From Rufibacter ruber (GTDB lineage: Bacteria > Bacteroidota > Bacteroidia > Cytophagales > Hymenobacteraceae): DNA of 64,000 nucleotides. The stretch is from contig NZ_LRMM01000015.1 of NCBI RefSeq assembly GCF_001647275.1, positions 1 to 64,000 of the forward strand. The letters run 5' to 3'. Below the pieces are notes generated by a model that saw nothing but the letters and a program-made list of their open reading frames with translations, had not been told where the DNA came from and did not search any database. This document shows positions 15,865-35,942 of this stretch, in pieces (position 1 is the stretch's first letter; each line of letters starts with the position of its first letter). The position numbers and the translations under genes are program-made.

Positions 15865-16283
15865 ATAGTCTAGGTTTCGGTTTGCTGAAGCAGTTGTAAC
15901 CCACCCCTACCCCTCCTAGGACGGGAATTATCTGCTAAAGACTCAAGTTCCACGAAAGCTCGTCCTAAGCCTCCGCTATTCGAGATTTGAAATCCCGAAT
16001 AACAAAGGAAAGATAACAGTTAAGCGTTCTACATCCTTGTTAGTATCCATAATGAGTTAACTGCTTCAATAAACTGCAACAAGGGTTAACTAATATTCCT
16101 CAGTCGCTTCTATTAATCTACGTCCCGTTTTTGGCCTGTTTTCTGGAAAGTAGGCCAAAAACGGGACGTATTTATTCTGCATCGGTGCAGCCGAAAACAA
16201 AGTTTGTGATAAGATCTGAGGCAGCGCATTCAGCCGTCGTCTTTAAAAGTCCGTAGAAAAATCAGCACCTATTCTGTTGAACC
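15865..16283. other. intergenic region with several hairpin elements
   Basis: No gene seen. It holds the inverted form of the CCCCTC/GAGGGGTAGGGGTGGGTT element (about 15898-15921), a hairpin ATTCGAGATTTGAAATCCCG near 15979, and a dispersed palindrome at 16123-16166. The hairpin resembles the units of the arrays at 17.1 and 35.5 kb. Confidence 0.5.
16123..16166. repeat. dispersed palindrome with TGGCC/GGCCA core
   Basis: TCCCGTTTTTGGCCTGTTTT pairs with AAAGTAGGCCAAAAACGGGA; outer pairs are GC-extended here. Confidence 0.7.
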
Positions 16284-17045: not shown

Positions 17046-17049
17046 AGGA

Positions 17050-17083: not shown

Positions 17084-17140
17084 TATGGTGCAATGTGGAA
17101 CTCTGCTTTCTTTTCTATTCTCTTCATGCTTTTTCCCGCT

Positions 17141-17256
17141 CTTCCGGAGTTCTACTCCGGAAGCAATCTGCCGGGGAGTTCTACTCCCCTTTTTTTCTGT
17201 AGTTCCTGGCGGAGTAGAACTCCGCAGCAGGCAAGTTCGGGAGTAGAACTCCCGAA
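17141..17256. repeat. four-hairpin cassette, array 1 unit 1
   Basis: Four hairpins in the order forward, forward, reverse, reverse. H1 17141-17163 (CTTCC flanks), H2 17173-17189 (GG/CC flanks), H3 17209-17225 (GC flanks) and H4 17236-17256 (TTCG/CGAA flanks). The core is GGAGTTCTACTCC in H1 and H2 and its complement GGAGTAGAACTCC in H3 and H4. The same flanks in the same order occur at 35558-35681 with a different core. Confidence 0.7.
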
Positions 17257-17351
17257 CAGCTGAGCAGCTGAGGTAGTTGGGCTACACCTTTTCTCTTTTG
17301 CAATCCTAAAAGGAACTTGGTGGTGAACAGCAATAGTATTTCCCCCTTGCA

Positions 17352-17480
17352 CTTCCGGAGTTCTATTCCCGACCAGCTGGAAACTCCTTGCTCTTCCGGA
17401 GTTCTACTCCCCTTCTTTGCTCGTGGTTCCCGGCGGAGTAGAACTCCGCAGCAGGCAAGTTCAGGAGTAGAACTCCCGAA
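17352..17480. repeat. four-hairpin cassette, array 1 unit 2 (rearranged)
   Basis: A second, imperfect copy. H1-like at 17352-17375 has a damaged right arm (TTCTATTCC), an H1/H2 hybrid lies at 17393-17412, H3 at 17433-17449 and H4 at 17459-17480. H3 and H4 with the GCAGCAGGCAAG linker are nearly identical to unit 1. Confidence 0.65.
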
Positions 17481-17579
17481 CAGCAAGTAACTCCAAACAG
17501 CAAATGGCCCACGAACAGCAAGTACAACAAGTACAGCTAATCAACACCTTATAAGCATGTTTCAACATTTCTTGCCACT

Positions 17580-17621
17580 CCTGTTTTTGGCCTGTTTTCG
17601 CAAAAACAGGCCAAAAACAGC
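17580..17621. repeat. dispersed palindrome with TGGCC/GGCCA core
   Basis: A perfect copy in the convergent gap between the OBAP gene and ffh. Confidence 0.75.
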
Positions 17622-17653
17622 AATGCCCGAACCGTAGAGGTTCGGGCATTGCT
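17621..17653 (-). terminator. hairpin, probable ffh terminator
   Basis: CAATGCCCGAACC and GGTTCGGGCATTG form a perfect 13-bp stem with a five-base loop. On the minus strand, GCTGTTTTT follows. It lies 36 bases after the ffh stop. Confidence 0.65.
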
Positions 17654-17688
17654 CTAAAATAGAAGAACTAATATCTAACAACGAAGAG

Positions 17689-19026
17689 CTACCGCCGGCC
17701 CATCATGCTGCCCAACTTGGCCAGCCCTCCTTTAGTGCCCGCCATTTTGTTCATGCTGCGCATCATTTTCCGCATGTCATTGAACTGCTTCATCAGGTTG
17801 TTCACCTGCTGAATGGTAGTTCCAGAACCTTTGGCAATGCGGTTGCGGCGGCTTCCGCTGATCATGTCAGGGTTGAGGCGCTCTTCCTTGGTCATGGATT
17901 TGATAATGGCCTCAATGGGTTTGAAAGCGCTTTCATCAATCTCCACGTCCTTCAGCATTTTGCTCACGCCCGGGATCATGCCTACCAGGTCTTTGATATC
18001 ACCCATGCGTTTGATCTGCTCCAGCTGAGACAGGAAGTCGTCAAAGTTGAACTGGTTCTTGCGGATGTTCTTGTTGATCCGCTTGGCCTCTTCCTCGTCA
18101 AAAGTCTGCTGTGCGCGCTCCACCAGGGAGATCACGTCGCCCATGCCCAGAATACGCTGTGCCATCCGGTCTGGGTAGAACAGGTCCAGGGCTTCCATCT
18201 TCTCACCGGTGGAGATGAACTTGATGGGTTTCTCTACCACAGCCCTGATGGATAGGGCGGCCCCACCTCTTGAGTCACCGTCTAACTTAGTCAGCACCAC
18301 GCCGTCAAAGTTAATGCGCTCGTTGAAGGTTTTAGCGGTGTTCACGGCATCCTGACCGGTCATGGAGTCTACCACAAACAGGGTCTCGGTGGGTTTAATG
18401 GCCTCTTTGATGTTGTAGATCTCCTGCATCATGGCCTCATCCACGGCCAGACGGCCGGCGGTGTCAATGATGACAACTTTCTTGCCGGTGCGCTTGGCAT
18501 GCTCTACGGCGTTTCTGGCAATCTGCACCGGGTCTTTAGATTCGCGCTCCGCATAAAACTCAACGCCCACCTGCTCGGCCAGAACATTCAGCTGGTCAAT
18601 TGCCGCGGGGCGGTACACGTCACAGGCTGCCACCATGACGCCTTTGCCTTGCTTTTTCAGAAAACTGGCCAGTTTACCGGTGAACGTGGTTTTACCAGAT
18701 CCCTGCAGACCGGCAATCAGAACAATGGCGGGTGAGCCGTTGAGGCTGATGTCTTTTTTCTCGCCGCCCATGAGTTCAGTGAGCTCCTCATGCACAATCT
18801 TCACCATCAACTGGCCCGGTGACACGGCAATCAACACGTCACGGCCCATGGCCTCGTCTTTGATCTTGTCGGTCACGGTTTTGGCCACCTTGTAGTTCAC
18901 GTCTGCGTCTACCAGGGCGCGGCGCACCTCTTTAATGGTTTGGGCTACGTTGATCTCAGTGATGCTGCCTTGGCCTTTCAGGGTTTTAAAGGCGCGGTCC
19001 AGCTTATTACTTAAATTCTCAAACAT
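17689..19026 (-). CDS. ffh: signal recognition particle protein Ffh
   Basis: 445 residues, normal length. The N domain is followed by the GTPase G domain (AGLQGSGKTTFTGKLA, DTAGRLAVDE, TKLDGDSRGG) and the Met-rich M domain (MKQFNDMRKMMRSMNKMAG), which binds signal sequences and SRP RNA. It directs membrane and secreted proteins to the Sec translocon with FtsY. The matching SRP RNA gene is at 36044-36146. A CAAAAATA box (TATTTTTG on the minus strand) at 19095-19102 may be its promoter. Confidence 0.97.
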   Translation of the reverse strand: MFENLSNKLDRAFKTLKGQGSITEINVAQTIKEVRRALVDADVNYKVAKTVTDKIKDEAMGRDVLIAVSPGQLMVKIVHEELTELMGGEKKDISLNGSPAIVLIAGLQGSGKTTFTGKLASFLKKQGKGVMVAACDVYRPAAIDQLNVLAEQVGVEFYAERESKDPVQIARNAVEHAKRTGKKVVIIDTAGRLAVDEAMMQEIYNIKEAIKPTETLFVVDSMTGQDAVNTAKTFNERINFDGVVLTKLDGDSRGGAALSIRAVVEKPIKFISTGEKMEALDLFYPDRMAQRILGMGDVISLVERAQQTFDEEEAKRINKNIRKNQFNFDDFLSQLEQIKRMGDIKDLVGMIPGVSKMLKDVEIDESAFKPIEAIIKSMTKEERLNPDMISGSRRNRIAKGSGTTIQQVNNLMKQFNDMRKMMRSMNKMAGTKGGLAKLGSMMGRR

Positions 19027-19179
19027 GTGGTTTGTATGGCTGAGTTAGGTTCTGTTCAGGTTAAATCGTTCCTTGTTTCTGTAGGAACTATTTACAAAAA
19101 TACGCAGAAATTTGGCAAGTTCACCATATTTTAGCCTAAGCTCCGTATATTGGAACGAGCCGTACATTTCGGCACCGCC

Positions 19180-19220
19180 GCTGTTTTAGGGCTACTTTTG
19201 CAAAAACAGCCCCAAAACGG
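19180..19220. repeat. dispersed palindrome, in divergent gap
   Basis: CTGTTTTAGGGCTACTTTT with AAAACAGCCCCAAAACGG; two mismatches. It lies between ffh and the frameshifted glycosyltransferase. Confidence 0.6.
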
Positions 19221-19270
19221 CAACCGACAGAGATAAGACCTTACCACCGTACAATAGAAGAAGAGTACTT

Positions 19271-20589
19271 TTGGAATCAAGAACACACACCACCCAACCC
19301 AATACCCTATTCATCACCTACTACTGGCCCCCGTCTGGCGGCGCCGGCGTGCAGCGATGTCTCAAATTTGTGAAGCACCTGCCCGAGTTTGGGGTGCAGC
19401 CACCGTGATCACCGTAGATGAGAGGCAGGCCTCTTATCCTGTGATAGACGCCACCTTAGAGGCCGAGGTGCCGGCCTCTGTGCAGGTCATCAGGACCAGA
19501 ACCCGGGAGCCGTTTGAGTTTTACAAGAAGCTCACCGGCAAGAAAGACATTCCGTTTGGCGGCTTTGCAAACACCGGGAACGAGAGCTGGAAGCAGAAGC
19601 TTTTCAAATTCCTGCGCGGCAACCTGTTCATTCCTGACCCGCGCGTAGGCTGGAACCGTTTTGCCCTGGACGCCGCCACCAAGGTCATGAAGCGGAAGGA
19701 GATGCACGCCGTGGTCACCTCCAGCCCGCCCCACTCTACCCAACTGATTGGCCTGAAGCTCAAAAAACAGTTCGGGTTGAAGTGGATTGCCGATTTGCGC
19801 GACCCCTGGACCGATATTTATTATTATCAGGACTTGAACCACACCGCGCTGGCGCAGAAGATTGATGCCAAATACGAGCAGGAGGTGCTGGAAAACGCAG
19901 ACGCCATTCTGGTGGTGAGTGCCGACATGAAACGCCTGTTCCTGAACAAATCCACCACCCTGGACCCTAACAAGATCCATGTCATCCCCAACGGATATGA
20001 TGAGGCAGATTTCGTGCACCCCTCTGCCCCGTCAAAAGAGGAATTCACCATCACCTACACCGGCACCATTACAGAGGCTTATAACGTGGAGGGGTTCTTC
20101 CAGGCGCTTTGTGACACCATGACCAAAAACCCGCTCATCAGGTACAAGCTCCGGTTTGTGGGCAAGGTTTCTGCAGAAGTGAAGCGGCAGGTAGAGGCGG
20201 CGGGGTTGGCCTTGATCACAGAGTACATTGACTATGTGCCGCATGATGTGTCTATTCAATACCTCATGTCCAGCACCGTCTTGTTCATGGCCATACCAGA
20301 CGTGCCCAACAACTTCGGGATATTGACGGGTAAGCTGTTTGAGTACCTGGCCGCCAACAAACCCATTATGTGCATTGGCCCCATACACGGCGATGCTGAT
20401 AGAATCATTGATGAATGCGGTGCCGGACGGGTCTTTCACTACACCGGCTATGACTTGATGCTGGACCAGCTCATGCAGTTCAGCAAAGCCTGGAAAGTAA
20501 ACCCCAACCTGGACCTGCCCATCATCAACTATACCCAATACTCCCGCCGTGCCCTCACTGAGAAACTGGCGGAATTGCTGGTGTCTTAG
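19271..20589 (+). CDS. glycosyltransferase with apparent frameshift
   Basis: A family 4-like glycosyltransferase. The conserved N-terminus ([20 protein letters not shown] then [13 protein letters not shown]) is read in one frame from a TTG at 19271. The rest ([19 protein letters not shown] onward, with [15 protein letters not shown] and [11 protein letters not shown]) is in another. Adding one base, for instance a third C at 19399-19402 (CAGCCC ACC), restores a 439-residue protein of normal length. Without it only a truncated frame from 19357 remains. It opens the surface polysaccharide cluster. The acceptor and donor are unknown. Confidence 0.8.
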
Positions 20590-20591
20590 CA

Positions 20592-20637
20592 TTTCTGTTT
20601 TGGGGCTGTTTTCTGAAAAACAGCCCCAAAACAGAAA
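20592..20637. repeat. dispersed palindrome with GGGGC/GCCCC core
   Basis: TTTCTGTTTTGGGGCTGTTTT and its complement, three bases after the glycosyltransferase stop. Confidence 0.8.
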
Positions 20638-20830
20638 CGCCTTGTGCGGCTAAAGCTTCCCCTTACCTTCTGTTACCCTTCTGAAAGGGGTTTAGAAGCG
20701 AGCACCAACAGCGGTTACCTCTCAGTTACCCTGTTGCGTCTTTTCCCTTCCCTAGCTTTCTGAAGAATGCTGTTTAGGGTTTTGAACCTGGCGGGAAAGG
20801 ATGGCATTGCAAAATTCCTTACCATTCCAG

Positions 20831-20879
20831 GGTTTCTGTTTTAGGGCTGTTTTTTTGAAATCAGCCCCAAAACGGAAAC
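20831..20879. repeat. dispersed palindrome, imperfect
   Basis: GGTTTCTGTTTTAGGGCTG with TCAGCCCCAAAACGGAAACC; G-U type changes only. Confidence 0.65.
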
Positions 20880-21052
20880 CCTGGCACCATTACCCAAGGA
20901 CTTTCTTTCAACACTTGAAACAGCTGCCGGAATAGAAATGGCTTTCATTATAAAATGAAAAGAAGTAGAATGTTCCAGAAACGTGCAGAACCTTTTAGTT
21001 CTTCTTACCTTTATTCTTAAGCCATAGACTCACCGCATTACTTCTAGCCGCC

Positions 21053-22377
21053 TTGCAACGCCTCCTGGATTACGTACTCTTCCATTTCAAGCGGGTTTAC
21101 CATCTGCCGGAGCCGCTGGAAATCAGCTATGGCCTGGACGGCCGCAGCCGGGTGCAAGTCTTGCCCGCTGAAGGCAGTTTCTTTGAGAGCGAACTGCCCA
21201 GGCCAGACCAGGTGGGTAAAAAAGACTGGAAAGGCACCTCTCTCCCTCTCTTTTTCCAGAGTACTACTACGCAAGAATGGTTTACCCCGCAGACAGACGG
21301 GCAAGTACAGGTGCACTATGACCTGGTGGCCAGTGCCTTCTTTCTGTTGAGTGGCTGGCAGGAGTACTATAGCCCTGAGCGGGATCAGTTTGGGAGGTTT
21401 CCCTACCGCGCCTCTCTTCAGGCAGAAGAAGGTTTTGTTACCATACCTGTGGTGAACTACTACTTTGAGATCCTGAAAGAAGCGGTAGAGATAGCGTATG
21501 GTCAGAAAATTCAGCCCCGGCTCTGGCAAGGGAAACCGTTTGCCACCTGCCTCACCCATGACGTTGACTACCTGCAGAGTGCCTGGAAAGTAGCCGGAAT
21601 TTCCGCATTGCGGAAAGGGAACATTCTCCGGTTGGTGCGCCTGGCCTACCAGAAGCTAGCCCAGAATGACGCGTGGTTCAATCTGTTGCAGGTAGAGCAG
21701 GAGCTTGAAAAACTTCAGGCAAGGGCCACTTTCTTTTTTTTAACGGAGTCTGCCAAATCTGAGGGGCACCCTAACGCTGACTATGACATCGCCTCGGCGG
21801 CTGTTCAAGCAGAAATCAGCCGCCTGGTCTCCGCCGGACATGAAATTGCGCTGCACGGCAGCCACGGCACCGGCACCTCTGCCGCGCAGCTTCTGGGGGA
21901 GCGGGAGAAAATACCCGCCCCCGTACAAGGGAACCGCTTTCACTATCTGCGCTTTGATCCGGGTGCCTCTCCAGCGGTGCTGCTCTCCTCCGGCATCACC
22001 TATGACAGCAGCCTCGGCTTTCCGGAAAACTACGGGTTCCGGCACAGCTACTGCCACCCCTTTCGGTTGTTCAGTTTTAAAGAGCGCGCCATGCAGGAGA
22101 CGTGGGAGCTGCCCCTGAACCTGATGGACATCACCCTGCACCACCCCCGTTACCTCCAGCTGCGCCCCGGCACGTTATGCCTGCCGTTACCCCCCTGCTG
22201 AACGAAATTATCAGGTTTCATGGGGTCTTTACCCTGCTCTGGCACAATGAGAACTTTACGCCCTACGCTCTTCCGCAAGGGGTCCAGATCTTCAGAGACC
22301 TCACCCGCTACTGCTCCAGGGCCGGAACGGCTTTCCTAACAGCGTCAGAAGCCGTTGCCCACGCCTCTATCTCTTAA
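21053..22377 (+). CDS. polysaccharide deacetylase-like protein with apparent frameshift
   Basis: Reads as a NodB-fold protein of the type found in Bacteroidota capsule clusters: an N-terminal domain (FFLLSGWQEYYSPERDQFGR) and then CLTHDVDYL (metal-binding Asp), ATFFFLTESAKSEGHPNADYD, and GHEIALHGSHG (His pair). The main frame from the TTG at 21053 runs to 22201 with an unnatural tail. The true C-terminus (MPAVTPLLNEIIRFHGVFTL, then LWHNENF) is in the next frame up to 22377. One lost base near 22160-22170, for example in a GGG run, explains it and gives 441 residues. Deacetylation of a surface glycan is the likely role. Confidence 0.78.
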
Positions 22378-22429
22378 ATTTACCCGCTGTCTATTTTCAA
22401 AGCATAGTTAAAGCCTCAGCAGAAGCTGT

Positions 22430-22437
22430 TATTTTTG
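22430..22437 (+). promoter_or_regulatory. candidate TAnnTTTG promoter box
   Basis: TATTTTTG, 67 bases upstream of the flippase ATG, with a palindrome copy between. Confidence 0.35.
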
Positions 22438-22449
22438 CGCCTTCACCCG

Positions 22450-22490
22450 TGCTGTTTTTGACCTGATTTCAGAAAAACAGCCCTAAAACG
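22450..22490. repeat. dispersed palindrome, imperfect
   Basis: GCTGTTTTTGACCTGATTTC with AAAAACAGCCCTAAAACG; it lies in the 5' leader of the flippase gene. Confidence 0.6.
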
Positions 22491-22503
22491 CCGCCCTCCT
22501 TTC

Positions 22504-23997
22504 ATGGATGTCATCCGCAAGCAGAGTTACCTGAACACCTTGATTTCTACCGTGGGCATGGTGGTAGGGTACCTGAACACGGTTCTGGTGCTCCCCCACT
22601 TCCTGAATGACCCTGACAAGGTGGGGTTAACCCGTTTTCTGATCAGCGTAGCCCCGGTGTTCGCCCAGTTTGCCGCGCTGGGGTTTACCAATACCAGCGC
22701 CCGCTTTTTCCCTTATTTCCGGGACCGGGACAAGCAGCACAACGGGTTCCTGTTTCTCATGCTGGTGATCCCGCTGGCGGGGTTTGTGGTGGTAACGGCG
22801 CTGTTCCTGCTCCTGAAGCCTGCGGTGATAGACTACTTTGGAAAAAACTCGCCTCTGGCGGTGGAGTACTACTACTATATTATTCCGCTGAGCTTCTTCA
22901 CTCTGCTGTTTCTGTTGCTGGACGCTTACCTGCGGGCGCTCTACAAAAGTGTGGTCCAGACGTTTCTGCAGGATTTCTTGGTGCGAATGCTAACCATGGT
23001 AACGGCAGCCCTGTATCTTTTTGGGTGGGTAGATTTCCAGTGGTTTGTGATTCTGTTCATTGCCGCCAATTCAAGCAGTGCCCTCATCTGCATTGTGTAT
23101 CTGCTCTGGCTCCGGCAGTTTTTTGTTCGGCCCGGCCGAAACATGTTTCAGATTGTACCCATCAAGGAGGTGGTGCAGTACGGCTTTTACTCGTTTTTAG
23201 GAGGGATTTCCAGTACGGTCATTACGTTTACAGATTCAGCCATGATTATGGCCATGTCCCCCCGCGGCCTCGCTGATGTAGCGTTTTATACCACGGGGTA
23301 TTTTATCACCAGTGCTATATTGGTGCCGTACCGCAGCATGAACAAAGTTCTGACCGCCCAGGTGGCTGACCTTTTCAAGCTGGGCGATTTCCCGGCGCTG
23401 GGGCACCTGTACAAGCGCATGACCCGGGTAAACCTGGTGATTGGGTTGCTGCTGTTTCTGGGCATCTGGTGCAACGTTGACAATATCTTCTCCTTTATGC
23501 CGCCAGAGTACAGCGCCGGCCGGTACGTCATCCTGTTCATGGGCATTGCCCGTATCTTTGAGTTAGGCACGGGCCTGAACGCCATGATCCTGATCACGTC
23601 CCACAGATACCGCTATGACCTGATCCTGAACATTCTGATGGTTGCCCTGGTCATCACCACCAATTATCTGTTGATTCCGCCGTTCGGGATCAATGGAGCC
23701 GCCTTTGCTTCTATGCTGGTCTTTGTGGCCGTGAATATGCTGCGGGTAGCCTTTGTCGCTTTCTTTTTCAAAATGCAACCGTTTGGGTGGGACTCCCTGG
23801 CCCTGCTGGCTATTGCCGCGGTGGCTTTTGTTGCTTCCTGGCTACTGCCCCGCCTGCCCCACGTACTGCTGGATATTGCCGTGCGTTCTGCCTTGATCAC
23901 CGGTATTTATGCAGGCTTGGTGCTGATGAGCAAGGTGTCACCGGAGGTCAATGAAGGTATGAAAAAGACAGTAGCAAAACTTAATATGAATCTTTAG
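22504..23997 (+). CDS. Wzx-like oligosaccharide flippase
   Basis: 497 residues with about 12-14 predicted membrane helices and the MATE/MVF-superfamily polysaccharide transport pattern. It probably flips lipid-linked glycan repeats across the inner membrane. Examples of helices are GFVVVTALFLLLKPAVIDYF and ALLAIAAVAFVASWLLPRL. The N-terminus SYLNTLISTVGMVVGYLNTV, then LVLPHFL, is characteristic. It belongs to the polysaccharide cluster with the flanking glycosyltransferases. No Wzy polymerase is seen in the window. Confidence 0.87.
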   Translation: MDVIRKQSYLNTLISTVGMVVGYLNTVLVLPHFLNDPDKVGLTRFLISVAPVFAQFAALGFTNTSARFFPYFRDRDKQHNGFLFLMLVIPLAGFVVVTALFLLLKPAVIDYFGKNSPLAVEYYYYIIPLSFFTLLFLLLDAYLRALYKSVVQTFLQDFLVRMLTMVTAALYLFGWVDFQWFVILFIAANSSSALICIVYLLWLRQFFVRPGRNMFQIVPIKEVVQYGFYSFLGGISSTVITFTDSAMIMAMSPRGLADVAFYTTGYFITSAILVPYRSMNKVLTAQVADLFKLGDFPALGHLYKRMTRVNLVIGLLLFLGIWCNVDNIFSFMPPEYSAGRYVILFMGIARIFELGTGLNAMILITSHRYRYDLILNILMVALVITTNYLLIPPFGINGAAFASMLVFVAVNMLRVAFVAFFFKMQPFGWDSLALLAIAAVAFVASWLLPRLPHVLLDIAVRSALITGIYAGLVLMSKVSPEVNEGMKKTVAKLNMNL

Positions 23998-24074
23998 AGA
24001 ATAACCTTATAGGAAGATAAATTTTTATTTATCTTCAGCTTCCTAAAAACATAAAAGTATACAAATAAATTATT

Positions 24075-26705: not shown

Positions 26706-26718
26706 AAAGAAGCTAATA

Positions 26719-27795: not shown

Positions 27796-27820
27796 GTTGC
27801 GGTTGATTCAGTTGTACCCG

Positions 27821-28717
27821 TTACCGAAGGATATATTTTTCAATCAGGGACAATTTCTCTGGATGTACAAAGAAACAGTTCTTTGCTCCGTTGTCATTTT
27901 CGCGGGCCAAGGTTGAGACGTGCACCAAGCCGTCATTCAGATGCAGGTAAAAGCCGTAGCCATACTGCTTCATGGCCTCTTCCAGTTCATTTTCTATGAG
28001 TCCAAAGAGGATTTCGCAGACAATGATGGGCTTATGTTTTCTGATGGTAGCATCCATCCCTTTGATGATACTGGGTTCGGCTCCTTCGGCATCAATCTTC
28101 ACAAAGTCTACCTGCAGGTCAGACTGGCCCGGCTCCTGCAGAAGCGCGTCCAGGGTATAGCTGTGCACACTATACTTTGAAAATTGCCTTGGCTTCACAA
28201 AAAGGCTGGAAGAACCACCTAGGTTGTACTGGAGGTAACCGTACTTCTCACTTTTCACCTCAAAGAATTCCAGTTCGCCCACCTGATCTGAGAGAGCAGA
28301 TTTAAAAGTCTTTACCCGGCTGTTCAACCCGTTCAACTGTACATTTCTGTTCAGGAAATGATGAGAGGCGTTAGAAGGGTCAAAAGCCAGCACGTTGATA
28401 GTTGGATTGACAGTGGCAGCTACCAAAGAGAAAAGCCCGGCATTGGCGCCTATATCAACAAACCCTTTACAGTTTTGGATGATCTCTTCAAAGATCCCCA
28501 GGTATTCATAGGAATAAACCCCGTTCCAGAAGATCAGGTAACCTACATAATCTGTCTGGTTCGTTTCAAGCTTTATCTTCTCCCCATTTTTAAGCGTGAT
28601 ATCTAAGATGCCAGAAACCGGTAGCTTAAATTTGGGGAAAAGCAGCTTGTTTACATTCCGGAGGAAGTAATTCACCTGTGGTTGGTAAACCACTTTATAA
28701 AGAGGGGTTAAGTTCAT
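27821..28717 (-). CDS. FkbM family methyltransferase
   Basis: 298 residues with the FkbM-type SAM fold: FVDIGANAGLFSLVAATVNP (motif I), VLAFDPSNASHHFLNRNVQL (acidic loop) and FVKIDAEGAEPSIIKGMDA. FkbM-type enzymes O-methylate sugars or small molecules. In this cluster a surface sugar is the likely target (inference). It is 25 bases upstream of the glycosyltransferase on the same strand and likely in one transcript with it, the oxidoreductase and the aminotransferase. Confidence 0.87.
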   Translation of the reverse strand: MNLTPLYKVVYQPQVNYFLRNVNKLLFPKFKLPVSGILDITLKNGEKIKLETNQTDYVGYLIFWNGVYSYEYLGIFEEIIQNCKGFVDIGANAGLFSLVAATVNPTINVLAFDPSNASHHFLNRNVQLNGLNSRVKTFKSALSDQVGELEFFEVKSEKYGYLQYNLGGSSSLFVKPRQFSKYSVHSYTLDALLQEPGQSDLQVDFVKIDAEGAEPSIIKGMDATIRKHKPIIVCEILFGLIENELEEAMKQYGYGFYLHLNDGLVHVSTLARENDNGAKNCFFVHPEKLSLIEKYILR

Positions 28718-28740
28718 GGTGGGGCAGAGATAATGCTGGC

Positions 28741-29760
28741 TTACGCTTTGTTCTTCAGTTCATAAATTCGCTCAATGATCTCCACCACCTTCAGTCCTTC
28801 CAGCGCATTGGTAGTGGCAAAGGTCTTGCCCTTGAGCGTGTCAATCACGTTCTCAAAAATGAAGTGGTGGTTGGCGGCACTCCCTTTGTAGTGGCCGTAG
28901 TCATTGGCCGGGCTGCTGGGCGGCAGCTCAGGCATGGTGTAGCCCTGCACGTGGCAATATTCCACCTCGTTCATGTACTGGCCACCCACTTTGATACTGC
29001 CTTTCTCGCCAATAATGGTCATGCTGCTCTCCAGGTTGGTATCCCAAACGGCAGTGCTGTAGTTCAGGCACCCGTTTCCGCCGTTCATAAACTCAAACTG
29101 TATCAGGCCGCTGTCTTCAAAATCTGTGAGCGTGGCGTGGTTGAAGTCCATGAACCGGCCTGTTATATTTTTGATATCCCCGAAGAGCCAGTACATGATA
29201 TCAATAAAATGGCTGAACTGGGTGAACAAGGTGCCTCCATCCAGCGCCTGGTTTCCTTTCCAGGTACCGGCTTTGTAGTAGCGTTCATCCCGGTTCCAGT
29301 AGCAATTGATCTGCACCATGAAAATCTGCCCCAGCCGCTTCTCAGAAATCATCTCCTTTAACCACAAAGACGGCGGACTGTAGCGGTTCTGCATGACACA
29401 AAACACCAGTTTAGAAGTCTGCAGTGATTTATAGATGATGCGCTCACAGTCTGCTTTACTGAGGGCCATGGGTTTTTCACAGACCACATGGCTCCCGTTC
29501 TCCAGCGCCAGCATGGCCTGCTCAGCATGATAGCCGTTAGGGGTGCACACGCAGATGACATCGGCCTTGGGGCCGGAAGCCAGGTATTCTTCCATGCTCA
29601 GGAAGAAAGGAACGCCATAGTCCTCCACTTCCGCTCTACGGGCGGGGTCTGAATCTACCATGGCTATCAGCTCCCCTTCCGGATGGCGCTGTACCATGGT
29701 GGCGTGGCGTTTGCCAATATGGCCGGCCCCTATGACCGCAAAAGTTATTTTCTCTGACAT
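28741..29760 (-). CDS. Gfo/Idh/MocA family oxidoreductase
   Basis: 339 residues, NAD(P)-dependent sugar dehydrogenase. N-terminal Rossmann motif FAVIGAGHIGKRHATM, CVCTPNGYHAEQAMLAL, and HVVCEKPMALSKADCERI with the catalytic Lys of EKP. The C-terminal domain carries AGTWKGNQALDGGTLFTQFS. Its pairing with a DegT aminotransferase is the pattern of WbpB/WbpE-type synthesis of 3-amino-3-deoxy sugars, probably a UDP-2,3-diacetamido sugar precursor. The acyltransferase of that route is not in the window. Confidence 0.9.
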   Translation of the reverse strand: MSEKITFAVIGAGHIGKRHATMVQRHPEGELIAMVDSDPARRAEVEDYGVPFFLSMEEYLASGPKADVICVCTPNGYHAEQAMLALENGSHVVCEKPMALSKADCERIIYKSLQTSKLVFCVMQNRYSPPSLWLKEMISEKRLGQIFMVQINCYWNRDERYYKAGTWKGNQALDGGTLFTQFSHFIDIMYWLFGDIKNITGRFMDFNHATLTDFEDSGLIQFEFMNGGNGCLNYSTAVWDTNLESSMTIIGEKGSIKVGGQYMNEVEYCHVQGYTMPELPPSSPANDYGHYKGSAANHHFIFENVIDTLKGKTFATTNALEGLKVVEIIERIYELKNKA

Positions 29761-29774
29761 GAACTGCCTGTTGT

Positions 29775-29817
29775 GCGTTTTTGGCCTGTTTTCAGAAAAG
29801 TAGCCCGAAAACAGGAA
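29775..29817. repeat. dispersed palindrome, imperfect
   Basis: GCGTTTTTGGCCTGTTTTC with AAAAGTAGCCCGAAAACAGG, between the aminotransferase and oxidoreductase genes. Confidence 0.6.
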
Positions 29818-29839
29818 ATCTTAACTCTATTTTGTTGCT

Positions 29840-30970
29840 CTATTTCCGCAGAAACTCTATTACTGCGTTGGCAATGTATTGCTGTTGTTCCTGGGTAAGT
29901 TCTGTGTGCATGGGCAGGGAAAGTACAGTATGGCAGAGGCCTTCCGCCACCGGGAAGTCTCCCGCTTGGTAGCCCAGGTAGGCATAGGCGTCGTGGAGGT
30001 GCAGCGGCACCGGATAATACACCATGCTGGGGATGCCCTGCTCCTGCAGGTGGGCCTTTAAGGCGTCACGCTTCCCGGCAGAGACCTGCACGGTGTACTG
30101 GTGGAACACGTGCGAGCTGTAAGGGGCCAGGGTTGGGATTTTGATGCCCTCCACTTCGGCAAACGCCGAATCATAATTCATGGCTGCTTTCTGCCGGCGC
30201 TGAATAAAATCATCCAGGTGCTGCAGTTTTACATCTAGCAGGGCGGCCTGCAGAGTATCTAACCTGGAGTTCACCCCTACCCTGGAGTAATGGTATTTCT
30301 TGTGCTGCCCATGGTTGGCAATCTGCTGAAGCACTACTGCCAGCTCCTCGTCCTGGGTGAAAATAGCACCGCCGTCTCCCATGCACCCCAGGTTCTTTGA
30401 CGGAAAGAAAGACGTGGTGCCCACATGCCCAATAGTGCCTGCAAACGAGGTGCCCCCCTCTGCGTCTATGTATTCTGCCCCAATGGCCTGGGCATTGTCT
30501 TCAATCACAAACAGTTCCTGCGCAATGGCCAGATCCATGATTTCCTCCATAAGGGCACATTGCCCGAACAGGTGCACCGGCATAATGGCCACTGTTTTAT
30601 CTGTGATGGCGGCTCTTACGCGGTCTGGGTCCAGGCAGAACGTATCTGGCAGAACATCTACAAAAACCGGCTTGAGCCCCAGGAGCGCAATCACTTCGGC
30701 GGTAGCCACATAATTGAAGGCAGGCACAATTACCTCGCCCCCGGCGGGAAGATCCAGCGCCATGAGCGCAATCTGGAGGGCATCTGTACCGTTGGCGCAG
30801 GGAATGACATGGTTGGCCTGCAGGTACTGGGCCAGGTGCTGGGAGAATTCCTTTACCTGTGGGCCGTTGATAAAAGCTGTACTGTCTACCACAGCCTGCA
30901 TGGCTGCGTCAATCTGAGGTTTAAGGCGTTGGTACTGACCTTTCAGGTCTACCATCTGCAGTTGGTTCAT
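29840..30970 (-). CDS. DegT/DnrJ/EryC1/StrS aminotransferase
   Basis: 376 residues from the ATG at 30970 (MNQLQMVDLKGQYQRLKPQI). A PLP-dependent sugar aminotransferase that converts a 3-keto (or 4-keto) nucleotide sugar to the amino sugar. Features: HVIPCANGTDALQIALMAL, GGEVIVPAFNYVATAEVIAL, VIEDNAQAIGAEY (PLP-ring Asp) and FFPSKNLGCMGDGGAI with the Schiff-base Lys. The frame extends eight codons further, but two TATATTTG boxes lie at 30976-30996 on the minus strand, so the start at 30970 would be nearly leaderless. Confidence 0.92.
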   Translation of the reverse strand: MNQLQMVDLKGQYQRLKPQIDAAMQAVVDSTAFINGPQVKEFSQHLAQYLQANHVIPCANGTDALQIALMALDLPAGGEVIVPAFNYVATAEVIALLGLKPVFVDVLPDTFCLDPDRVRAAITDKTVAIMPVHLFGQCALMEEIMDLAIAQELFVIEDNAQAIGAEYIDAEGGTSFAGTIGHVGTTSFFPSKNLGCMGDGGAIFTQDEELAVVLQQIANHGQHKKYHYSRVGVNSRLDTLQAALLDVKLQHLDDFIQRRQKAAMNYDSAFAEVEGIKIPTLAPYSSHVFHQYTVQVSAGKRDALKAHLQEQGIPSMVYYPVPLHLHDAYAYLGYQAGDFPVAEGLCHTVLSLPMHTELTQEQQQYIANAVIEFLRK

Positions 30971-30975
30971 GCACA

Positions 30976-30996
30976 CAAATATAACAGGCAAATATA
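30976..30996 (-). promoter_or_regulatory. two overlapping candidate promoter boxes
   Basis: CAAATATA occurs twice (30976-30983 and 30989-30996), reading TATATTTG on the minus strand just before the aminotransferase ATG. No well-placed -33 TTG. Confidence 0.35.
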
Positions 30997-31195
30997 GGAA
31001 CTGTTGCTGGTAATCTCTTTACCGGCAGTCACTATAATTCAACAGACAAGCAATCAACCTATACCAATACTATCTTTATAATATTCAATTAAAAAACCAG
31101 AACCACCAATATATAATGCAAAATGCAACCTCAGTTACAGCACCCCGTTAAATAACCCATATTGAACTTTGAATAAAAGGCAAAACCACACAACT

Positions 31196-32098
31196 ATGAA
31201 AAAGCCAAATTTCTTTAAAAAACATATTTTTATCTATGGGGCGGTTCTGACCATGGGTTTCACGCAAGTGGCGTGTAACAGCACTGACCGCACTACTGCC
31301 ACCAACACAGAGGCTTCTGGCACCAGTGACCAGGCCTATAATGATTACAAGAGTTATGTCACTACGTATGAGTCTGACGTAAACGGCGGCTGGGACAGCA
31401 CCGAGACTGACTGGGATTCTCGCATGACCAGAGACCGCCAGCGGTATGACTCCCTGGAGTACGCGGTTTCAGGGTTTGAAAGCACCCTTGATGAAAACCA
31501 GAAAGCAGAATACGCCGAGTACCGCAGCCGCTACCAAAATGCGTGGCAGCAGCGGGAAGGCCAGTACAGCGCCTGGATGAACAACAACCAAAGCACCAGT
31601 GCCAGCTCAACCAACCGTAGCGCCGGTATGAGTTCAGAGGTTGACATGTCTTCTATGAACACAGAAAAGATCCCGTCTTATACCGCCCGTGACATCAGGG
31701 AAGCGTATGAGTCGTTTGTGTCACATGTAGAAAGCAACAAGTCAAACTACAGCAATGACGACTGGAAAACTGTTGAAATGTACTGGAACAAACTGGATGA
31801 CCGTAAAAACGCCATCCAGAGCGAACTGAGTGACAAAGACAAGTGGGAAATCGCCAAGGCGAAAACCAAGTACATTGCCATGAAGAATGCCAGTAAAGCC
31901 GGTAATACCGCCAGCAATGTGGGCTCCAGCCTGAAAGAAACCGGTAAAGATGTTTCTAACAGCAAAGTGGGCGAGAACGTGAAAGACGCCGGGCAAGCCG
32001 TTGGCTCTGGTGCAAAAAAAGCCGGGAAAGCCGTAGGCAACACCGTGAAGAAAGGTGCCAATAAAGTAGAAGACGCTTTTGACGGCGATGATAATTAA
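31196..32098 (+). CDS. lipoprotein with Gly/Ala/Lys-rich amphipathic tail
   Basis: 300 residues from the ATG at 31196; the earlier TTG at 31169 is less likely. The signal ends at FTQVAC. A polar, Ser/Asp-rich middle with two related helical stretches (AYNDYKSYVTTYESDVNGGW and AYESFVSHVESNKSNYSNDDW) is followed by a tail with repeats of the form KETGKDVSNSKVGENVKDAG and KKAGKAVGNTVKKGANKVED. The tail resembles LEA-like or entericidin-like amphipathic segments. No family recognised. A stress or envelope role is inference. Confidence 0.75.
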   Translation: MKKPNFFKKHIFIYGAVLTMGFTQVACNSTDRTTATNTEASGTSDQAYNDYKSYVTTYESDVNGGWDSTETDWDSRMTRDRQRYDSLEYAVSGFESTLDENQKAEYAEYRSRYQNAWQQREGQYSAWMNNNQSTSASSTNRSAGMSSEVDMSSMNTEKIPSYTARDIREAYESFVSHVESNKSNYSNDDWKTVEMYWNKLDDRKNAIQSELSDKDKWEIAKAKTKYIAMKNASKAGNTASNVGSSLKETGKDVSNSKVGENVKDAGQAVGSGAKKAGKAVGNTVKKGANKVEDAFDGDDN

Positions 32099-32124
32099 TC
32101 TTTGGTTTCTTCTTGTAGAAACGT

Positions 32125-32156
32125 AAAAAGCCCTGCCGCTTTGGCAGGGCTTTTTT
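32125..32156 (+). terminator. intrinsic terminator
   Basis: AAAAGCCCTGCC, loop, GGCAGGGCTTTTTT: a strong stem with a T run, 27 bases after the lipoprotein stop. Confidence 0.9.
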
Positions 32157-32159
32157 GTG

Positions 32160-32201
32160 CCTGTTTTAGGGCTGTTTTCAGAAAAACAGCCCTAAAACAG
32201 G
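32160..32201. repeat. dispersed palindrome with AGGGC/GCCCT core
   Basis: A perfect copy whose right arm forms the last codons and the TAG stop of the glycosyltransferase on the minus strand (Asn-Leu-Phe-stop). Confidence 0.8.
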
Positions 32202-33091
32202 TTTTGTTTCTGCAGGTAACGGGTTAGCAAGAGCAGCCGGTACAGGTCAAAACACCACAGGCGGGGGTTCTGGCTTAGGAGTTGCTGCTTAAGCATGGGA
32301 AGCAACCAGGTATTGCTCTGCTGGAGCAGTGGCACAGCCCCCCATTTCTTCGCCTTACAATACACCTGAAACAACCGGCTGTCTTTGCCCAACTGCAGCT
32401 GCCGGTGCAACCGCGCCAGGTTGTACACCGCCTGGTCTGCCTTAAGAAGGAAAAGCGGGCCAGGTTCAAGCCCCAGGTGCACCACCGGGTTCTCCAGATG
32501 CTGTACCGGCAGGCCTTTTTCCTGCAGCCGCCAGGCAAAGAGCGTGTCTTCATGCCCATACCCCTGCACCTGCGCCGCCAGAAAGTTCTCCAGGAACAGC
32601 GTTTTAGAAACGAGCATGTTACTGAAGAACAGGCGCTGGTAAGGGTTCTTCTGCCGCTCCGCACTGGTGGCCTGCTCTCTTGCCCTCCCATATTTCCACC
32701 GGAGAACCGCCTCTGCCGGATAGGTATCTGCATACGTAACCCCGCCCGCTACCACGGGCGCCTGCCCTTGCTGCACGTACTTTTGAAGGAAAAACAGGGA
32801 GGCCGGTAAGACATCATTGTCCAGGAAAAGCAGCGTGTGGAAAGCGGCCTCTGTGGCCAGTTGGTACCTGATCTGGGACCGGCCTACGTTTTGGGGCAGT
32901 TCCAGGTAAGTTACCTCCGGCAAGTTGCGGCACGCCCGGTTCTGTTTTTTAATTTCCTGGTTAGAGCCGTCATCATAAACCCTCACCTCAAAGGGAATGG
33001 TAAGAGACCTTGCCTGCTGCAGCAGCGCCTCAACCAGTGCAATAACCGGCTGGTTATAAACGGGAATGAGAACAGAAAGCTCAGATACCAT
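32192..33091 (-). CDS. family 2 glycosyltransferase
   Basis: 299 residues, GT2 fold. LSVLIPVYNQPVIALVEALL, VRVYDDGSNQEIK and LLFLDNDVLPASL (metal-binding DND) are visible, then GYGHEDTLFAWRLQEKGLPV with the catalytic region. No membrane segment. The stop codon lies inside the dispersed palindrome. It overlaps the end of the ABC ATPase gene by 11 bases, so it is co-transcribed downstream of it. Substrate unknown. Confidence 0.85.
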   Translation of the reverse strand: MVSELSVLIPVYNQPVIALVEALLQQARSLTIPFEVRVYDDGSNQEIKKQNRACRNLPEVTYLELPQNVGRSQIRYQLATEAAFHTLLFLDNDVLPASLFFLQKYVQQGQAPVVAGGVTYADTYPAEAVLRWKYGRAREQATSAERQKNPYQRLFFSNMLVSKTLFLENFLAAQVQGYGHEDTLFAWRLQEKGLPVQHLENPVVHLGLEPGPLFLLKADQAVYNLARLHRQLQLGKDSRLFQVYCKAKKWGAVPLLQQSNTWLLPMLKQQLLSQNPRLWCFDLYRLLLLTRYLQKQNLF

Positions 33092-33794
33092 CTACCAGCG
33101 AGAATTCTTCGCGGGCAGAATCAAGTACCCTGCCCCGTTCACACTTCAAGATGCGGCGCGGGTACCGTTGCAAGGTCTGGTGGTTGTGGGTAGCCATGAG
33201 TATAGCCGTCCCGCTGTTGTTGATCTCCTGAAACAGGCGCAAGATACTGTCAGTCACCTCGGGGTCCAGGTTGCCGGTGGGCTCATCTGCAAACAGAATG
33301 AGCGGTTCATTGAGCAGGGCGCGGGCAATCACTACCCGCTGCTGCTCCCCCCCGGAAAGCTGGTGGGGCATTTTATTGGCCGCAGAGTCCAGGCCCACCC
33401 GCATGAGCACCTCTGAAATCCGGTTTTTGATTTTAGACTTGTCGCTCCAGCCGGTTGCTTTCAACACAAACTTGAGGTTGTCTGCCACACTGCGGTCAAA
33501 CAGCAGCTGGAAATCTTGAAAGACAATCCCAATCTTGCGACGCAGAAATGGAACCTGCTTCCAGGTGACGCTGTGAATGTTAAACCCGGCCACCTGGGCG
33601 GTGCCCACTTTCAGTGGAAGATCAGCGTACAGGGTTTTAAGCAAGGAGCTTTTCCCGCTTCCGGTTCTGCCTACCAGGTACACAAACTCCCCTTTCTCAA
33701 TGGCAAAGCTCACCTCGCTCAAGATGGTGTTCACATCTTGAAAAATAGAGACTCTGTTTAAGACCACCACCGGGTTAGAGGAGAAATCTGCCAT
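33081..33794 (-). CDS. ftsE: FtsE-like ABC transporter ATP-binding protein
   Basis: 237 residues of the FtsE/MacB ATPase group. Walker [19 protein letters not shown] (about 40), signature [19 protein letters not shown], Walker [16 protein letters not shown] and the H-loop ATHNHQ. With the membrane protein FtsX it regulates peptidoglycan hydrolases at division. No ftsX is adjacent. The neighbouring genes are a glycosyltransferase and a short hypothetical gene. Another MacB-type ATPase is possible. Confidence 0.85.
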
Positions 33795-33797
33795 AGG

Positions 33798-34001
33798 TTA
33801 TATTTCCAGTTTCTGTAATTTCCCGAACTCCAGGCCTTCTATCACGGCAGCCAAGGCTTCTTCCTTGCCTGCCAGGCCGTATCGGTCAATGTTTTTCAAA
33901 GGCCGGTCAGCCCGGAAATACGCAATCAGCACGAAGTTCTCATCGCGCAGCTGAATATAATCTGGAATCTTGGCCTTGCCTTTTACTTTGATGATGTACA
34001 C
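33798..34001 (-). CDS. short hypothetical protein
   Basis: 67 residues (MYIIKVKGKAKIPDYIQLRD, IAYFRADRPLKNIDRYGLAG), predicted as a small alpha/beta protein. It starts next to the AT-rich palindrome and ends three bases before ftsE, so it is in the same transcript. I do not recognise the family. The even codon use and tight spacing favour a real gene. Confidence 0.65.
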   Translation of the reverse strand: MYIIKVKGKAKIPDYIQLRDENFVLIAYFRADRPLKNIDRYGLAGKEEALAAVIEGLEFGKLQKLEI

Positions 34002-34010
34002 CTTTTTTTA

Positions 34011-34092
34011 ATTAGGGATTAGGAATTAAGAATTAGAAATGCACGAAAACACCTTCCAATTCTTAATTCCTAATTCTAAATTCTTAATTTAT
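34011..34092. repeat. AT-rich dispersed palindrome, full copy
   Basis: A left arm built of TTAGGAATTAAGAATT and a right arm AATTCTTAATTCCTAATTC flank a short GC-richer loop near 34040-34055. It fills the gap between the short hypothetical gene and fsa. Same family as 17050 and 63299. Confidence 0.7.
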
Positions 34093-34749
34093 TTACCCGT
34101 TTGCTTTTTTATGGTCTGCCAGGAATTTAGCCAGACCAATGTCGGTCAACGGGTGGTTCAGCAAACCGGTGATCACATTCAACGGGCAGGTCACCACATC
34201 AGCGCCAATCTCAGCACACTGCACCAGGTGCATCACGTGCCGAACGGAAGCCGCCAACACCTCTGTGGGGTATCCGTAGTTCTGATAAATCTGCACAATC
34301 TGCTCAATCAGGTTCAACCCGTCTGTAGAGATGTCATCTAAACGGCCCACAAACGGAGACACATAGGTAGCACCGGCTTTGGCGGCCAGCAATGCCTGTC
34401 CGGCTGAGAAAACGAGGGTACAGTTGGTTTTAATGCCTTTGTCTGTGAAATACTTGATGGCTTTTACACCGTCTTTGGTCATGGGCACTTTCACCACAAT
34501 ATTGGGGTGCAGTTGCGCCAGCTCCTCCCCCTCTTTCACCATGGTCTCAAAATCTGTGGCAATCACCTCCGCACTGATGTCACCGTCTACAATTTCGCAA
34601 ATGGCTTTGTAGTGCTTCATCACATTATCATAGCCAACAATGCCTTCTTTGGCCATCAATGACGGATTGGTAGTCACGCCGTCCAGTACGCCAAGGTCAT
34701 AGGCTTCACGGATTTCATTCAGGTTTGCGGTGTCAATGAAAAATTTCAT
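34093..34749 (-). CDS. fsa: transaldolase-like fructose-6-phosphate aldolase
   Basis: 218 residues from the ATG at 34749 ([20 protein letters not shown]), the size of the short transaldolase/FSA subfamily. It splits or forms sugar phosphates through a Schiff-base Lys, in [27 protein letters not shown] and [15 protein letters not shown] are diagnostic. The choice between transaldolase and fructose-6-phosphate aldolase cannot be settled from sequence. A TAGATTTG box on the minus strand at 34770-34777 may be the promoter. Confidence 0.92.
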
Positions 34750-34769
34750 AGCAGATGGGTTTTGAAACA

Positions 34770-34777
34770 CAAATCTA
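34770..34777 (-). promoter_or_regulatory. candidate promoter box of fsa
   Basis: CAAATCTA reads TAGATTTG on the minus strand, about 20 bases before the ATG. Confidence 0.4.
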
Positions 34778-34860
34778 CTTTAAAGCATTTTTAAAAGCGA
34801 ACTGACAAGGGAAGTATTTTCTCATGGCTTTTACAGAAATAAAGGAAGGGTATTTGGTTG

Positions 34861-35942
34861 ATTAGATGCTGGAGCAATTACCGTGGCAGCAGTGGTGCGT
34901 GATATGCAGTTCCCCTGGCGGTAGCGGTTGGTGCGGTAGTGCCTAAGTGATACACTTTTTTCAAAGCCCCTGTTGCTGGAGTTAGAATGTGGAGCGTAGT
35001 CTGCTGATTCCTTGGCAGCGGCAGTTGGATGCAGTGCTGTTGTTTTAGGAATACGTGGACTGCTGTTCCCTTGGCTCTCCCGTTTGCTCCGGTGCGAAAT
35101 CCCATTGCTGTTGCATTGTCTCCGGTAAGTGCTCACGGCCGCGGGGCCCCGTCCTGGCGGTGAGCACTGCTGTTAAAACTAGGCCCTCCGGCCTTGCCGC
35201 TGGAGCGGCACCGTAGTAACAGGCGCTCACCCCCAGAACTGGTTTCGGTTCCTCTCCTGTTACTGCTTGTGCTGTTATGTCTGCTTCAGTAGGTAATGGT
35301 TGCTGTTCCGCTAGCCTATGGCGAGCCCGTGCTGCGCACATCAGCCAGGGGTATGGTTGATTGTCTATTGCTGATTGCTATAGGTCTGGTTCAGACGTTT
35401 CGTAGAATGGTAGAGACCAGGCACCGCCTTGTCTGCCACGCATACCTGATACTCCCCCTTGAAGGGGGCGAAGGGGGATGTTTACACAGGAGGACACGCA
35501 TGCCAGATCAATCCCCATGTCGGCACATATCGTTGAGCCCTGCCTAGCATCGCGCTCTTCCGGATTTGCAATCCGGAAGCTAGTACACGGTGATTTGCAA
35601 TCCCCGTGGCAGCACGTTTGATCTGCAGGCGCCGCGGATTACAAATCCGCAGGCACTGTGTCCGGGATGGCAAATCCCGGACAGACGAGGCCATTTCAGA
35701 GGCAGGGGCATATTGCATACAACCTACGCATTCCAGATCACTCCCCTCTCGGGAGGGGTAGGGGTGGGTTTTACATACGGCTAAACTCCCCGCGGTTCCC
35801 GTCGGCTCTGGAGACTCGCCCCATGCCATGCACGAAACCAGAGTCTCGCGCCAGTGCCAGCAACCAACCTAGCAACAACAAACCATCAGCCATTCTTATA
35901 ATTCCCCGTAGCGTCTAGAGGATATAAGAGCGGCTGGGCCAA
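34861..35942. repeat. large non-coding repeat, copy A
   Basis: About 1.1 kb without a credible gene, sharing several blocks in the same order with 60541-61142: GCTCACGGCCGCGGGGCCC (35132), TGCTGTTAAAACTAGGCCCT (35168), GGTTCAGACGTTTCG (35389), GTAGAGACCAGGCACCGCCT (35411) and CGTAGCGTC with GAGCG near the right end (35909). Copy A carries an extra 0.4 kb with a hairpin cassette and a CTCCCCTCTCGGGAGGGG element (35741). Short frames inside repeat between the copies and look spurious. Confidence 0.65.
35558..35681. repeat. four-hairpin cassette, array 2
   Basis: H1 35558-35580 (CTTCC flanks, core GGATTTGCAATCC), H2 35586-35608 (CACGG/CCGTG stem), H3 35634-35650 (GC flanks, core GGATTACAAATCC) and H4 35661-35681 (TCCG/CGGA flanks). 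Order and flanks match the cassette at 17141, while every core has T:A where that one has G:C. Confidence 0.7.

Follow-up and report, generated by a model that had tools for sequence, protein, structure and literature searches.

The window analysed here, a stretch of 64,000 nucleotides of Rufibacter ruber (assembly GCF_001647275.1, contig NZ_LRMM01000015.1, positions 1 to 64,000), carries cassettes of about 123-134 bp in which four hairpins share one core sequence. With a probability of roughly 0.8, these cassettes are non-autonomous mobile DNA elements similar to REPINs (inverted pairs of REP, repetitive extragenic palindromic, sequences), which would be bound and mobilised by cognate REP-associated tyrosine transposases (RAYTs, or TnpAREP) resembling subclass 2.6. 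The cassette is a dispersed repeat with sharp ends, its cores change in concert and with compensation, a single tag occurs on both sides of RAYT genes, and a RAYT clade is associated with the CTTCC/TTCG flanks; copy number follows, with the caveats given below, the presence of RAYT genes of this clade or of their remnants. As a system this is known in kind, whereas no description of its inverted unit of double hairpins, of the common tag or of the concerted, RAYT-linked change of that tag was found in the openly licensed papers searched.

Architecture and dispersal of the four-hairpin cassettes

The hairpins were designated H1 to H4, and class A (GGAGT tag) and class B (GGATT tag) were assigned by the fourth base of H1. 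The features of the window are as follows.

17138..17260, plus strand: complete class A four-hairpin cassette, ends supported by at least 25 listed matches
17141..17163, plus strand: H1, class A outer hairpin, CTTCC + GGAGTTCTACTCC + GGAAG
17173..17189, plus strand: H2, class A inner hairpin, GG + GGAGTTCTACTCC + CC
17209..17225, minus strand: H3, class A inner hairpin, inverted, GC + GGAGTAGAACTCC + GC
17236..17256, minus strand: H4, class A outer hairpin, inverted, TTCG + GGAGTAGAACTCC + CGAA
about 17352..17484, plus strand: second class A cassette, rearranged, with eroded H4 flanks
35554..35687, plus strand: class B four-hairpin cassette (H1 35557-35579; H2 core 35591-35603; H3 35634-35650; H4 35661-35681)
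15979..15999 (about 15983), no strand: solitary decayed class B outer hairpin, TTCG-AGATTTGAAATCC-CGAA

An earlier reading of the letters alone (the original prediction) had described the flanks, cores and order of the hairpins at 17141-17256 as they were found. For the cassette at 35558-35681, the order, H1 (GGATTTGCAATCC) and H3 (GGATTACAAATCC), both perfect, were also as described, whereas H2 has a single altered base (TGATTTGCAATCC) and H4 (GGATGGCAAATCC) is flanked by TCCG/CGGA, a compensated change, instead of TTCG/CGAA. The reported replacement of G:C by T:A was recovered at core pair 4 of all four hairpins of this cassette, and the single related hairpin noted near 15979 is the decayed class B outer hairpin listed above. 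The cassette at 17352-17484, in which the 5' arm of H1 is fused to the 3' arm of H2, had been overlooked.

The class B cassette of the window also belongs to a subfamily (35520-35760; loci L007, L028, L036, L044, L048 and L049) with extra common sequence on one or two cassette sides, for example atcgttgagccctgcc... before and ...ccgag...acgcat.ccagatcac after, which by eye is a longer composite repeat.

Across the 5.5-Mb genome, the H1 flank pattern GCTCTTCC-N(9,19)-GGAAG matched 54 times, against 3 times for the reversed control. The cores behind these 54 matches were 48 GGATT-like, 5 GGAGT-like and 1 chance match, and no core class beyond these two types and their close variants was found behind the H1 flank. 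GGANTNNNANTCC gave 240 matches per strand, compared with 72 for the control. The chance match (C45) and a duplicate over 70 nt (L043) were left out, and 52 copies were analysed. Where recognisable, the hairpins follow the order H1 (CTTCC/GGAAG), H2 (GG/CC), H3 (mostly GC/GC) and H4 (mostly TTCG/CGAA); H3 and H4 carry the core in the orientation opposite to that of H1 and H2, the inverted pair being the unit.

Upstream of GCTCTTCC, the first base retained 0.71 bit and the next 24 bases at most 0.44 bit (52 copies); downstream of CGAACAGC, conservation ended after NGAG (32 scorable copies). In a search of the genus that took the class A locus as query, 25 or more of the listed matches started at query positions 842-852 and ended at 967-981, that is, at 17131-17141 and 17256-17270 of the window, both cassette ends, in this genome and its congeners. 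Matches bounded by both ends fit a discrete mobile unit. No open reading frame (ORF) of at least 130 aa overlapped 41 of the 52 copies, and neighbouring ORFs were oriented ++ in 17 cases, -- in 16, +- in 13 and -+ in 5, with 1 undetermined. Viral contigs searched with the class A H1 hairpin gave 0 matches.

Core pair 4 of H2-H4 was G:C in 14/14 scorable hairpins of the five class A cassettes, and in the 47 class B cassettes it was T:A in 114/130 scorable hairpins and G:C in 0/130; 12 hairpins among H2-H4 were unscorable. For H1 itself the values at this pair were 5/5 in class A and 46/47 in class B. An alignment of 29 cassettes then drew on this genome as well as on the flanks of RAYTs elsewhere, and consisted of 20 of 21 rows obtained with one regular expression (L014 left out) and nine hand-picked rows; 97.5% of its cells pair, a percentage favoured by the selection of rows with recognisable hairpins, agreement between hairpins having been no criterion. 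Changes on both sides affected 14 of 33 stem pairs, compared with a mean of 7.0 in shuffled alignments (0/500 reached 14) and 1-5 in slid controls.

Within every one of the four helices, pair 4 was seen as T:A, G:C or C:G, and it was identical across all four hairpins in 24/29 rows; the five discordant rows comprised three with a T.G, one with one decayed hairpin and one with three. Two Watson-Crick types were mixed at pair 4 in 0/29 rows. The proposal of a variable identity tag in a structured element, changed in concert and with compensation, was borne out. The accompanying claim of fixed flanks held less well, since H3 is flanked by GC/GC in 21/29 rows and by GG/CC in 8/29, and three H4 flank pairs show compensated changes.

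DNA folding gave z-scores of -8.9 and -6.3 for the window cassettes. In the class A strand the two outer hairpins form and H2 pairs with H3; the class B strand folds into four local hairpins and one small additional hairpin.

RAYT genes and their tags

Four Y1 genes were found in this genome with PF01797. Those on contigs C97, C100 and C112 are full-length RAYTs of 182-183 aa, 3/3 above the cut-off of NF047646 (NCBIfam REP-associated tyrosine transposase). The C112 RAYT has four-hairpin cassettes with a different core (AGTCT..AGACT) on both sides, and around the C97 and C100 RAYTs lie hairpins whose cores are GGAAG and AAGCG. A fourth, decayed RAYT on C102 (L089) is preserved as fragments with stops, with a class A cassette directly downstream; by summed tblastn score, 12/12 of its best matches fall within the CTTCC/TTCG clade described below. 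The RAYTs studied are proteins of about 180 aa from Bacteroidota with mostly NHLH, FWQ and YIHQNP-type motifs, in agreement with those given for subclass 2.6 in passages of PMC6006769 (NH[LIV]H, WQ, YIH[QN]NP, about 179 aa, Bacteroidetes); likeness to this subclass was judged by motif list, length and host group. Departures are SHVH and YVHTNP in the C100 gene, YLHQNP in the C112 gene and YIHMNP in P0001 and L148. Weak sequence matches in the PDB were TnpAREP 4er8 and 2xm3/2xma-type transposases.

Tags of two of these RAYTs also occur in the window. A half cassette at 35797-35855, about 110 bp past the class B cassette, has an AGTCT-like tag as at the C112 RAYT; cassette families therefore form mosaics. 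At 59456-59550, two inverted hairpins carry the AAGCG tag, the same as at the C100 RAYT.

RAYT profile matches at E <= 0.001 were present, some of them weak, in 108 of the 148 genomes searched, this one included. From among the matches listed, 122 were taken and 5 under 100 bits were dropped, giving 117 genes, 116 with usable flanks. Hairpins (stem of at least 6) were present on both sides of 93 RAYTs, and in 72 of these the innermost five-base arm was shared between sides; permutation of the downstream flanks gave a mean of 6.75 and a maximum of 16 in 2,000. RAYTs thus answer to the linked gene that the original prediction had left to be looked for. Stricter hairpin settings yielded tag sharing in 45/59 and 44/59. 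Hairpins with a stem of at least 7 occurred at 3.25 per kb upstream and 2.38 downstream, against 0.11 in genes and 0.29 in shuffled upstream flanks.

A second sample, of named Bacteroidota genomes and a few Chlorobiota metagenome-assembled genomes, showed a shared tag in 54/62 RAYTs (permuted mean 20.3, maximum 29), a total of 62 that is slightly inflated because the 80 matches include several fragments of one gene; clade tags are over-represented in it, since it was located with the clade's own profile. In this sample GGATT was shared more often than any other tag, in many cases together with a TGY loop, which points to class B as an old type. Tags also track the RAYT tree (115/117 rows), with 27 changes for 24 tags on 70 labelled rows, whereas none of 100 shuffles gave fewer than 48.

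One clade, of 14 RAYTs and with an SH-aLRT of 98, includes the rows tagged GGAGT or GGACA and all GGATT rows save L110, where the CAGTT tag of its own clade is equally frequent. Within the clade, GGATT occurs with TGY loops (L155, L156) and with TATC-like loops (L141 plus strand, L148, L151, L153, L154, L161), GGAGT on the minus strand of L141, and GGACAT at two genes of L158, of which the script labelled just one; three rows (L167, L168, L170) are Pontibacter-type with CTTTC flanks. The flanks CTTCC or CTTTC, GG, GC, and TTCG or TTTCG recur in the clade with the cores GGATT, GGAGT and GGACAT, though not without exceptions, among them L155 with GC at H2 and the TATC-loop cassettes with GG at H3. 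Class A cassettes lie beside the decayed L089 RAYT and those of L141 and G009, and class B cassettes beside those of L155 and L156. The scaffold flanks thus belong mostly to the RAYT clade and the core to the lineage, a pattern of nearly fixed flanks with changing cores that the original prediction had picked up from two members in the window.

At L141 (G012:C1:2134900-2137500) two convergent RAYT genes have different tags, TATC-loop GGATT and GGAGT, and part of a class A cassette appears joined onto the 3' end of the first gene. L160 (G031:C45:198970-207420) has three RAYT genes in 8 kb, two of which are flanked on both sides by CAATC-type tags.

The protein region that may read the tag was approached by an exploratory scan of 69 RAYTs (1,092 pairs, 104 with the same tag; 15-residue windows; no phylogenetic null). 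Identity at residues 66-85 (P0001 numbering) was about 0.12 higher in same-tag pairs, allowing for identity elsewhere and ignoring ancestry; neighbouring windows gave 0.09-0.10, residues 16-40 gave 0.06-0.08 and the rest -0.03 to 0.06. A weak hidden Markov model alignment (domain E 0.73, whole chain 0.0017) placed residues 66-81 onto 69-86 of E. coli TnpAREP 4er8, a segment that includes K82, described in passages of PMC8266576 as a REP contact in the DNA-binding helix alpha 3. The helix that follows the HuH motif may therefore hold at least part of the tag recognition. The insertion of subclass 2.6, proposed as tag reader in passages of PMC6006769, was also considered and rejected, as residues of about 96-117 of P0001, its inferred and unmapped place before FWQ, gave effects of only -0.03 to 0.05.

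Class B cores numbered 132 in G005, 123 in G021 and 114 in this genome (G000). Class A cores numbered 279 in G009, the other 15 genomes of the genus ranging from 0 to 42 (42 in this genome); reversed-pattern controls gave 0-2 per strand. In G009, contigs C22 and C58 break off within a RAYT gene that has a class A cassette immediately upstream; the 34 residues available share 79 and 82% identity with the RAYT of class A in G012. With the three tags summed over 16 genus genomes, 9/9 with a clade RAYT or remnant had 15-291 cores and 7/7 without had 1-4, close to what the controls gave (exact p 9e-5). The former comprise seven genomes with an intact RAYT, G009 with its contig ends and G000 with the decayed gene; six of the seven latter were searched at E <= 1e-20, and weak extra matches in G001, G011 and G014 were not counted.

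No cassette was present at 14/14 congener loci with the right-hand neighbour gene (G013 left out); three congeners (G004, G009, G015) have both neighbour genes within 260 bp. In G004, homology is lost at about 17081 and regained at about 17580, with another repeat in between. The G004 locus L177, orthologous to 17046-17688, has a different inverted repeat (CCGTCCCCCTTGGAAGGGGGTAGGGGGATGA) at the site of the class A cassettes.

Alternative explanations and proposed mechanism

Several results weigh against the interpretation as REPIN-like elements of cognate RAYTs. The 5' GTAG or GTGG foot of REPtrons and REPINs, which serves as guide in the TnpAREPs studied so far, is not conserved: in the 29 cassettes GT[AG]G lay within 6 nt 5' of the stem in 6/174 stem sides, five of the six at H4, a count that covers stem sides inside the alignment, the outermost H1 and H4 sides being outside it and the DNA upstream of H1 unconserved. 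No common tag was found between the sides of 21/93 RAYTs. No class B-tag RAYT was found in this genome despite its 114 class B cores; it may have been lost or may lie inside a gap of the 166-contig assembly. For the decayed C102 RAYT, the best match by single high-scoring pair in blastx was in the CTTCC/TTCG clade, with the second and fourth in the GGAAG clade. The 9-versus-7 split of genomes is partly post hoc, since the relaxed-threshold remnant search was limited to G000, G009 and G006 (none in G006), and an even-handed test with intact genes only gave p 0.036. RAYTs of G007, G010 and G013 are flanked by TATC-like loops, yet TGY-loop cores are commoner in these genomes (33 vs 11, 28 vs 4 and 26 vs 3); the loop therefore defines the family less well than the stem. 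A base-exact empty site was not obtained in the congener loci, because the orthologous intergenic DNA beside the cassettes is too diverged.

The original prediction had suggested a structured RNA or DNA element, perhaps with kissing loops, a reading that was rejected for the loops: H3 and H4 are the inverted hairpin type of H1 and H2, and loop complementarity therefore follows trivially from inversion. A structured RNA that acts in cis (as a terminator, mRNA stabiliser or riboregulator), pairs between its loops and has spread via duplication would account for the very stable folds (z about -9) and for the 41/52 copies clear of ORFs. It is nonetheless improbable, as mismatches in the core stems of the 52 copies were 22 G.T vs 24 A.C, therefore giving no sign of strand-biased G.U tolerance or of one strand kept as RNA, the neighbouring ORFs are of mixed orientation, Rfam gave 0 matches at the gathering threshold, RNA folding of the class A cassette favours a single long hairpin over four, and the tags track RAYT genes.

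This association with RAYT genes bears likewise on the view that the cassettes are miniature inverted-repeat transposable elements (MITEs) or decayed insertion sequence (IS) ends, moved by another, unlinked transposase and with RAYTs as mere passengers near repeats. The lack of a class B RAYT among those found in this genome and the location of most listed cassettes at loci without a RAYT match agree with such an origin, which gene-specific tags on both RAYT sides, in other families too, make very improbable; evidence against a different partner is weak, no other gene family having been searched for in that role. TnpAREP has also been termed a domesticated transposase (passages of PMC8266576), and cassettes are still present alongside a decayed RAYT or where none was found, as would be expected of host-domesticated sites (nucleoid, supercoiling, repair) maintained by RAYTs, their mobility being historical. 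That explanation is unlikely, given the 279 class A cores of G009, against 0-42 for the remaining 15 genomes of the genus, and the absence of the cassette at the neighbour-gene loci of 14 congeners; these contrasts point to fairly recent spread.

Under the REPIN-like interpretation, each cassette half would be a double-hairpin REP (outer CTTCC or TTCG plus inner GG or GC), the halves being inverted. The core common to the four hairpins would act as the recognition tag for the cognate RAYT, and the outer flanks mostly as clade scaffold. The substrate of the RAYT would be single-stranded DNA, possibly that of the lagging-strand template, on which it would bind the oriented hairpins with TGY or TCT loops, cut near the cassette ends, and then copy or move the cassette. 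A new, separately mobilised family would arise whenever a RAYT lineage changed its tag, and every tag family would depend on the RAYT that belongs to it. The four hairpins may be kept alike by shared descent and by deletions between identical cores (as at window position 17398).

A further proposal, tentative and with somewhat less than even chances, is that subclass 2.6 RAYTs and their cassettes constitute a natural code of mutually exclusive enzyme-tag pairs, in which a few residues of the post-HuH helix would read pair 4 and the loop, a T:A/G:C/C:G swap would retarget the enzyme, and families would coexist as independent intracellular populations. The way in which RAYTs recognise REPs and spread them is still debated, with subclass 2.6 so far set aside as 'atypical structures'. 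Natural matched enzyme-tag pairs, the cores of which differ mainly in one compensated base pair and in the loop while the stems are largely fixed, open recognition to tests by direct swaps. The cassettes also let one follow intragenomic populations rising with, and outliving, their transposase.

Comparison with known systems and other repeats

Passages of PMC8266576 describe TnpAREP of other subclasses as an HuH enzyme with strand-specific activity, cutting REP hairpins in single-stranded form and joining them again. The system studied here shares with REPtrons and REPINs an HuH-Y1 RAYT gene flanked by the repeats, an inverted pair as unit and many, mostly extragenic, copies. It is closest to TnpAREP subclass 2.6 (Bertels RAYT group 5): the RAYTs studied here share its motifs for the most part, are Bacteroidota proteins of about 180 aa and are flanked by genome-recurrent structures without GT[AG]G, and passages of PMC6006769 report the GTAG/GTGG foot as missing for this subclass too. 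These passages describe 'atypical secondary structures' in Bacteroidetes, without four-hairpin cassettes, a common core, tag families or concerted change.

REPINs and bacterial interspersed mosaic elements (BIMEs) of Pseudomonas and E. coli, as described in passages of PMC3116915, are likewise inverted REP pairs, extragenic, multicopy and RAYT-linked. Unlike them, the cassettes have two hairpins per half with one core, no conserved GTAG foot, and tags that change via compensated pairs. Group 2/3 REPtrons studied in vitro (passages of PMC8266576) are similar in that cognate TnpAREP/REP pairs co-evolve, those of group 3 being short perfect palindromes dependent on loop bases, whereas the GTAG guide is absent from the cassettes. 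IS200/IS605 elements also combine an HuH-Y1 enzyme with hairpins; unlike them, the cassette has no gene inside and its copies outnumber the RAYT gene.

The literature search covered openly licensed papers, without supplements. By title or abstract, it found nothing describing a four-hairpin, shared-tag architecture and no biochemistry on subclass 2.6, and the text string GGATTTGTAATCC appeared only in two papers, unrelated by title and abstract.

Another hairpin, GG(C/G)CTGTTTT...AAAACAG(C/G)CC, often inside TTTTTGG...CCAAAAA, was found in 20 copies in the 64 kb with at most 2 substitutions, at 4797, 6472, 14453, 16133, 17589, 20603 and 14 more positions. Dozens were present among the matches listed genus-wide, and in appearance it is a terminator-like repeat, very abundant in the genus.

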